Source: Blastocatellia bacterium
GTDB taxonomy: Bacteria > Acidobacteriota > Blastocatellia > UBA7656 > JADIYM01
Direction of reading: 5' to 3'
Assembly: GCA_021463145.1 (NCBI GenBank)
Contig: JAJTWZ010000040.1
Location: 1 to 37,775 of the forward strand
Length of the DNA: 37,775 bases
Shown: positions 13,274 through 14,250 of the stretch, one piece after another
Layout: every line of letters begins with the position of its first letter
How positions within the stretch are numbered: position 1 is the stretch's first letter
The notes under the pieces: model-generated
Databases searched by the model: none
Told to the model about the DNA's origin: nothing
Seen by the model: only the letters and a program-made list of their open reading frames with translations
Made by a program: the position numbers and the translations under genes

Positions 13274-13279
13274 ATTCTA
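13274..13279 (-). promoter_or_regulatory. Putative -10 element of the FAD monooxygenase gene
   Basis: TAGAAT on the minus strand ends ten bases before the ATG at 13263. No ribosome binding site lies between them, which fits a leaderless or nearly leaderless mRNA. Confidence 0.45.
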
Positions 13280-13390
13280 GCAGTTCCCCACGCGCCTGCG
13301 GTGCACACCCTCGGACGAAACGAGCAGCGTTTAGGGTCCGCGGGCCATTCTGAAGCGCCGGTGTTTTCTGTCAAGCTGGAAATGCTTCGA

Positions 13391-13789
13391 GTTTGGCCCT
13401 CCGAGAGGCAAACGGGTCCGCGACCGCGGAGCGGTCGATAGAATAGCCGTGGGTCGCGCGCGGCGAGCGCAGCGAGCAAGCGCGCGACCCGCGGAACCGC
13501 CCGCCGTGTCGAACCGACCGCGGAGCGGTCGCATTGTCCGTCCCAATGCGCGCCGGTGGTGACGCAATCGACGTTGTGTCCCGGCAAAGTGGCATCTCTC
13601 TCTTGACCGAAGATCGAGATTCGTACGGTTCGAACTGCGAACCCAATGCGACCGCTCCGCGGTCGGCGCATCTGGGTTCCGGGATCCGCGGGTCGCGCGC
13701 TTGCTCGCTGCGCTCGCCCACGCGCGACCCACGGCTACCATATCGACCGCTCCGCGGTCGCGGACCACCCTGCCTCTCGAGGGCCAAAG
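13391..13789. repeat. Long imperfect inverted repeat, 146-base arms with internal palindromes
   Basis: Arm 13391-13536 is the near reverse complement of arm 13644-13789, with a 107-base spacer; by eye the identity is about 85 percent with small gaps. Each arm has the same internal plan: palindrome GACCGCGGAGCGGTC (13422-13436 and 13516-13530; in the other arm, as GACCGCTCCGCGGTC, 13650-13664 and 13745-13759) on both sides of a hairpin with stem GGGTCGCGCG / CGCGCGACCC (13451-13460 with 13481-13490; 13690-13699 with 13721-13730). The loop carries a GCGAGCGCAGCGAGC stretch. This layout is typical of REP/BIME-like or MITE-like intergenic elements mobilised in trans. No transposase is encoded in the spacer. 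Confidence 0.85.
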
Positions 13790-13818
13790 CTGTAAAGCGC
13801 CGGCGCGAAAGCACCGTA

Positions 13819-13840
13819 GCCCACGGCGCAAGCCGTGGGC
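13819..13840. repeat. Perfect 9-bp hairpin with a GCAA tetraloop
   Basis: GCCCACGGC (13819-13827), loop GCAA (13828-13831), GCCGTGGGC (13832-13840). As plus-strand RNA the loop is a GNRA tetraloop, which stabilises RNA helices. Confidence 0.6.
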
Positions 13841-13980
13841 CTGTGGTGGGAAGGCGTCGAGAGCCCGCAAGGGGCGAAAGAAGAACGCGAATGCGCGACG
13901 GCCGTGGCCCTGTGGTGGGAAGGCGTCGAGAGTCCCGGAGGGGCGAAAGAAGAACGCGAACGCGCGACGGCCGTGGCCCT
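13832..13980. repeat. Tandem direct repeat, period 69 bases, two copies plus a partial third
   Basis: Copy 1 is 13832-13900, copy 2 is 13901-13969, and a third copy begins at 13970 and diverges after 13980. The copies share the segments CTGTGGTGGGAAGGCGTCGA and GGGGCGAAAGAAGAACGCGA and differ at a short variable block (CCCGCAA against TCCCGGA). Confidence 0.8.
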
Positions 13981-14250
13981 CTTTCGCCCCTTGCGGGGCT
14001 TCGATCGATTTCTGCCTGCTGACAAAAAGCTTGCGCCGTGGGGTTCGCGTGCTTTCGCGCCTTTGGTGACCCTGGAAGAAAGCGATGACGACTCGTTCAC
14101 GCGGCATTGCGACTCAAGGAAAACGGAGAGGTTCCGCAACAGGCTGACGAGTTGGGAGGCTCGAGGCGGCAACGACTGGCTGGCCGGCACTACCGGGCGA
14201 ACCCAACCGTACTGCAATCCGGTCACAATGACGGTCCGCCGGGTTCGCCG

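Follow-up and report, generated by a model that had tools for sequence, protein, structure and literature searches.

A dispersed, composite-armed inverted repeat in a Blastocatellia genome: a probable REPIN associated with subclass 1.2 TnpA-Y1 transposases

REPINs, as described together with their RAYT (TnpA-REP) transposases in Pseudomonas fluorescens SBW25 and E. coli, are high-copy inverted doublets of hairpins, each a single hairpin of 20 to 50 nt with a tetranucleotide foot; several subfamilies occur per genome, and an HUH-Y1 transposase gene (motif Y---NP) is flanked by its cognate repeat (PMC3116915, PMC8266576). TIRYT/TIRtron elements carry a tyrosine transposase between long inverted repeats, some self-complementary and some forming dispersed dimer families (PMC3733652). 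In a 2018 phylogenomic survey (PMC6006769), 20 of 26 TIRYTs are HTH-tailed members of subclass 2.1, and the others fall in subclasses 2.2 and 2.5. The same survey describes class 3 TnpA-Y1 genes of planctomycetes and acidobacteria (178 aa, Y----Q), whose flanks hold several repeated secondary structures of an atypical kind with a CnGA foot. Subclass 1.2, found mostly in Cyanobacteria and Bacteroidetes, is generally without typical terminal structures there, and no REP association is listed for it. We found no description of REPs for subclass 1.2 in the open-access literature.

The inverted repeat and its neighborhood

The window, the whole 37,775-nt stretch that was analyzed, is contig C109 of an incomplete Blastocatellia genome (G000; 5.28 Mb, 173 contigs). 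In a comparison with 24 named genomes, the NadC protein of the window came closest to Pyrinomonadaceae, "Acidobacteria bacterium 28-1", and Chloracidobacterium (60, 60, and 58%), which, as far as a single protein can show, points to Acidobacteriota and probably to Blastocatellia. As the preliminary description had proposed, paired inverted arms lie head to head around a 107-nt spacer: the repeat spans 13390 to 13791, with two arms of about 147 nt (13390-13536 and 13644-13791) on either side of the spacer (13537-13643). Complementarity between the arms is 82% over the outer 74 nt, 97% over the middle 37 nt, and 100% over the inner 23 nt. Each arm consists of a palindrome, an ATAG or GTAG tetranucleotide, a 15-bp hairpin, and a second palindrome; thus, the layout described earlier stood, while the stem length of 10 bp given with it did not. 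The palindrome, CGACCGC-GGA-GCGGTCG (CGACCGCGGAGCGGTCG), occurs four times, at 13421 and 13515 on the plus strand and at 13649 and 13744 on the minus strand. At all other sites, the window sequence departs from it by at least three mismatches, and at up to three mismatches the window holds 12 matches versus 2.35 expected.

The left arm (type 1, plus strand) begins with a 30-nt outer extension, followed by the outer palindrome (13421-13437), ATAG, which forms the 5' foot (13443-13446), the main hairpin itself (13447-13494; stem CCGTGGGTCGCGCGC/GCGCGCGACCCGCGG, 13447-13461 paired with 13480-13494), and the inner palindrome (13515-13531), after which comes CATT. The right arm, also type 1 but inverted on the minus strand, comprises the inner palindrome (13649-13665), the main hairpin (13686-13734; stem 13686-13700 with 13720-13734), a foot that reads GTAG on the minus strand (13735-13738), and the outer palindrome (13744-13760). 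The 15-bp stem includes one T-G pair, a wobble present only on the arm's own strand, read from outer end to inner end; on the opposite strand, this type-1 pair becomes a C-A mismatch. Such a one-stranded wobble hints at strand-specific folding.

The repeat appears to sit in intergenic DNA, upstream of a minus-strand gene starting at about 13264 that, from inspection of the open reading frame, we take to be FAD-monooxygenase-like; open reading frames crossing the arms are mechanical. Other dispersed repeats adjoin it upstream (13278-13360) and downstream (13800-14142). The upstream one is a dispersed module of about 83 nt that precedes many arms (window 13278-13360; L062 1103-1163; L002 1355-1438). 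It also stands directly before the arms at one of the transposase genes discussed below (gene 1), where it abuts the arm; in the window, two TCCGCG direct repeats enclose about 75 nt, which have the look of an insertion or deletion between them. Downstream, within 13796-14070, a second dispersed inverted-repeat element occupies 13802-14061 (GGCGCGAAAGCAC ... GTGCTTTCGCGCC). It is separate from the one under study, has 105 matches in the genome, and contains a tandem duplication of 69 nt along with a classic-looking hairpin, GTAG-CCCACGGC-GCAA-GCCGTGGG; a cognate transposase of its own did not come to light. Elsewhere, degenerate palindromes stand in tandem at regular intervals of 40, 60/61, or 73 nt beside arms (C8:38-280, C54:132-427, C44:3184-3424).

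Copies and arm types in the host genome

Copies were counted by sequence searches of the host genome and in individual stretches. The whole element returned 192 matches, and the 17-nt palindrome, at no more than one mismatch, occurs 390 times (203 and 187 on the two strands), whereas a reversed-pattern control occurs twice (1 and 1); the element is therefore present far above chance. In 215 kb of stretches picked around matches, and hence not an unbiased sample, same-direction palindromes recur at 92 to 95 nt, corresponding to the arm, and head-to-head palindromes recur at spacings of 134, 90/91, and 71 nt. By eye, a palindrome lies within about 165 nt of the first base in approximately 27 of contigs C1 to C68 (for example, C7, C13, C16, C18, C20, C33, C34, and C66). 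The repeats thus coincide with assembly breaks at many contig ends, which helps explain why such genomes assemble into fragments. An assembly artifact is ruled out by copies on many contigs with differing flanks and linkers.

The same element was lacking in 38 of 39 genomes of relatives searched, the nearest of which belong to another family, and the exception was one weak match. Because the searched relatives are without this DNA family, insertion sites could not be compared; excision, insertion polymorphisms, and empty sites were not observed.

Alignment of 60 arms separated 42 of type 1, the window type, from 18 of type 2 (TGACCGCGAAGCGGTCA ... ATAGCCGGGGGTCACGGC ... GCCGTGACCCCCGG ... CGACCGCGGAGCGGTCG). 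The foot is ATAG in 53 of the 60 and GTAG, the hairpin foot by which the GTAG-tagged REP superfamily is defined, in 5. Pairing is kept across the aligned arms in the outer palindrome (C-G in 40, T-A in 15) and in the stem, at columns 42-74 (G-C in 42, A-T in 17), 36-80 (T-G in 42, G-C in 17), and 43-73 (C-G in 52, G-C in 3). These pair-preserving changes mostly divide type 1 from type 2 and therefore represent few evolutionary events rather than dozens. They also support the earlier proposal that secondary structure is under selection at these sites. That description had named the lack of any second copy and of structure-preserving changes as grounds for abandoning it; a search of the same genome, as it had advised, yielded hundreds of copies, and such changes were found as well.

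Every spacing class of doublets has its own homologous linker. In the 134-nt class, a 117-nt linker starts with CAT[T/C]G and ends with CAATG, and both arms are type 1 wherever both could be typed; the window spacer belongs here, being homologous in about 15 copies (linker CATYG...CAATG). The 90/91-nt and 71- to 82-nt classes, on the other hand, combine a type-1 with a type-2 arm in all 8 doublets whose arms could both be typed. Doublets of the two types with a shared linker were seen at C84:45294-45572, C125:15133-15409, C44:3424-3700, and C130:55722-55980. As a rule, in the stretches examined, type-2 arms away from their transposase gene stand in mixed doublets, and type 2 was seen paired with type 2 only around that gene. 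This mostly mixed pairing is not predicted by a simple model of one transposase for one REP.

Two bracketed transposase genes and their homologues

A PF01797 profile search identified exactly two Y1_Tnp genes in the host genome. Gene 1 (contig C119, ORF L062:1462-1935) is preceded by two type-1 arms and followed, from about 6 nt past its stop codon, by an inverted type-1 arm; gene 2 (contig C128, ORF L061:1483-1935) lies between a type-2 arm on its upstream side and an inverted type-2 arm on its downstream side. Their proteins are 51% identical and share the HUH motif (NHVH/DHMH), WQ, and YIADQKQHH/YIASQKEHH. Both genes bear the TnpA-Y1 subclass 1.2 signature ([ND]HxH, WQ, Y---Q--HH, approximately 148 aa), an assignment made by comparison with the motif table of PMC6006769, not with its HMMs. 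In NCBIfam, both proteins are IS200-like; TnpA passes the IS200 model (62.4 versus 55 bits). On the REP_Tyr_transpos (RAYT) model, gene 2 reached 27 of the 80 bits and gene 1 had no match. An AlphaFold2 model of TnpA had a pLDDT of 89, and sequence comparison with solved transposases gave one weak match (2f4f).

The assignment was weighed against four other groups. The motif and the NCBIfam cutoff rule out a canonical RAYT of class 2, whose motif is Y---NP. A TIRYT/TIRtron is ruled out by the subclass 1.2 motif; Pfam gives only Y1_Tnp, and no HTH tail of the subclass 2.1 type was found. Class 3 is ruled out by Y---Q--HH together with the ATAG/GTAG foot. For an IS200/IS605 insertion sequence of subclass 1.1, multiple near-identical copies of the whole element with tnpA did not appear, the two genes of this incomplete genome being 51% identical. 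The suggestion that the arms are RAYT-type sites is supported, with one refinement: the host has two Y1 HUH genes, each between head-to-head cognate arms, but with subclass 1.2 motifs they lie outside the canonical RAYT groups.

A single scan returned 80 homologous loci, spread over Acidobacteriota, Planctomycetota, Verrucomicrobiota, Bacteroidota, Chloroflexota, and other phyla; these are the loci most like the query, and fractions among them refer to these loci, not to the whole of subclass 1.2. With the host's own two included, Y---Q--HH is present in 80 of 82 loci, and in 38 of 79 the upstream and downstream flanks are inverted repeats of one another, exceeding the 99% level obtained with mismatched pairs. 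A mechanical search found a palindrome-hairpin-palindrome arm in 110 of 196 flanks of 98 further homologues, compared to about 7 in dinucleotide shuffles. Same-class relatives accounted for 34 of 48 (shuffle, 1.0) and the other loci for 76 of 148 (shuffle, 5.7), while control windows 1.5 to 1.9 kb away gave 4 of 102 (shuffle, 3.3). In a small control within the same relatives, subclass 1.1-like genes scored in 0 of 10 flanks versus 18 of 38 for subclass 1.2. At least one flank scored in 11/13 Acidobacteriota, 6/6 Planctomycetota, 6/6 Verrucomicrobiota, 22/34 Bacteroidota, and 5/7 Chloroflexota. Moreover, among 117 arms, 35 have TAG in the 5 nt that precede the hairpin (background, 3%), and the palindrome sequences differ among the brackets of homologues from many phyla. 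The flanks of L144, L175, and L183 (Bacteroidota and one Anaerolineales) show palindromes followed by ATTATAG-like boxes, often without a main hairpin, and short CCCGAAGGG-GACATTATTATAG units.

Arms are also dispersed in two other genomes, with 15 and 25 matches, several of the latter clustering around the gene. In the relative G019, the arm of its gene has 75 matches, many as plus/minus pairs 10 to 14 nt apart, largely inverted dimers. Since dispersal thus recurs in three other genomes, the association is not peculiar to that of the window.

A probable REPIN and its comparison with known systems

The hairpin repeats are present at high copy, mostly as linker-joined inverted doublets, and they also lie on both sides of a Y1 HUH transposase gene of the same genome. 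We therefore regard the element, with a probability of roughly 0.85, as a REPIN, a nonautonomous single-stranded DNA transposable element whose likeliest mover is the type 1-bracketed subclass 1.2 TnpA on C119. Mobilization would presumably occur in trans, as the preliminary description had suggested. By analogy with IS200/IS605 and TnpA-REP (PMC8266576), from which the idea of a foot-guided recognition of the hairpin is taken, we propose that when the region becomes single stranded, for example, as lagging-strand template, the main hairpin would fold on the arm-oriented strand. TnpA would then bind it, reading the ATAG foot as guide, cut close to the palindromes in the vicinity of the arm borders, and join the excised strand elsewhere. 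Binding, cleavage, mobility, and the role of the short palindromes are what we infer from this parallel.

Instead, an ordinary IS200/IS605-like insertion sequence might terminate in these arms, the window copy being its deletion derivative (MITE). A TnpA gene wedged between inverted arms and scoring above the NCBI IS200 cutoff (62.4 versus 55 bits) would fit this, as would the several relatives with arms within a few nucleotides of the gene on both sides. However, hundreds of arms face only two divergent tnpA copies, and the spacers bear conserved linkers of their own. To our knowledge, moreover, the ends of IS200 are not long inverted repeats. We consider this explanation unlikely, although the border between MITE and REPIN is partly semantic. 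It is highly improbable that the repeats are retained as host sites (terminators, mRNA-stabilizing hairpins, or nucleoid-protein sites) beside incidental transposase genes: the strong hairpins in intergenic DNA, and the fact that such roles are known or proposed for REPs (PMC3733652), agree with it, but both Y1 transposases, and no others, are bracketed by cognate subfamilies, and homologues from many phyla show the same bracketing, with palindromes that differ in sequence. Host co-option could be a secondary development of a REPIN.

Beyond this locus, the evidence suggests, with rather less confidence than for the REPIN itself, that subclass 1.2 TnpA-Y1 proteins, to which neither IS properties nor REPs had been ascribed, are REP-mobilizing transposases spanning phyla, that they act on a common, conserved arm of three hairpins in which a TAG foot and a hairpin stand between two palindromes, and that mixed doublets built of arms belonging to two different transposases can operate within a single genome. 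What is new here is the pairing of a subclass 1.2 transposase with a composite arm. It likely supplies a substrate for a published "orphan" transposase subclass and adds an arm architecture to the REPIN repertoire from outside the gammaproteobacteria, the subject of most prior work considered. A genome with two subfamilies, two transposases, and mixed doublets also offers a natural test of how strictly a TnpA keeps to its own repeats.

Altogether, the system resembles REPIN/RAYT in its high-copy inverted doublets, tetranucleotide foot, cognate-flanked HUH-Y1 transposases, and several subfamilies per genome, but differs from it in an arm of three hairpins and about 115 to 147 nt, a mostly ATAG foot, Y---Q--HH, and mixed type-1/type-2 doublets. 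It agrees with subclass 1.2 of PMC6006769 in protein length (about 150 aa), [ND]HxH, WQ, Y---Q--HH, a conserved C-terminal tail, and low copy per genome; in contrast to that account, the arms here are scattered through the genome, and homologues are frequent in an acidobacterial class as well as in other phyla. Like TIRYTs, it places the transposase between long inverted repeats, and GGGGTCAC of the type-2 arm fits their GGGGWSAS; unlike them, its genes have the subclass 1.2 motif, with no HTH tail found. With class 3 it shares HUH-Y1 genes flanked by several repeated secondary structures, whereas its proteins of about 150 aa, Y---Q--HH, and ATAG set it apart.
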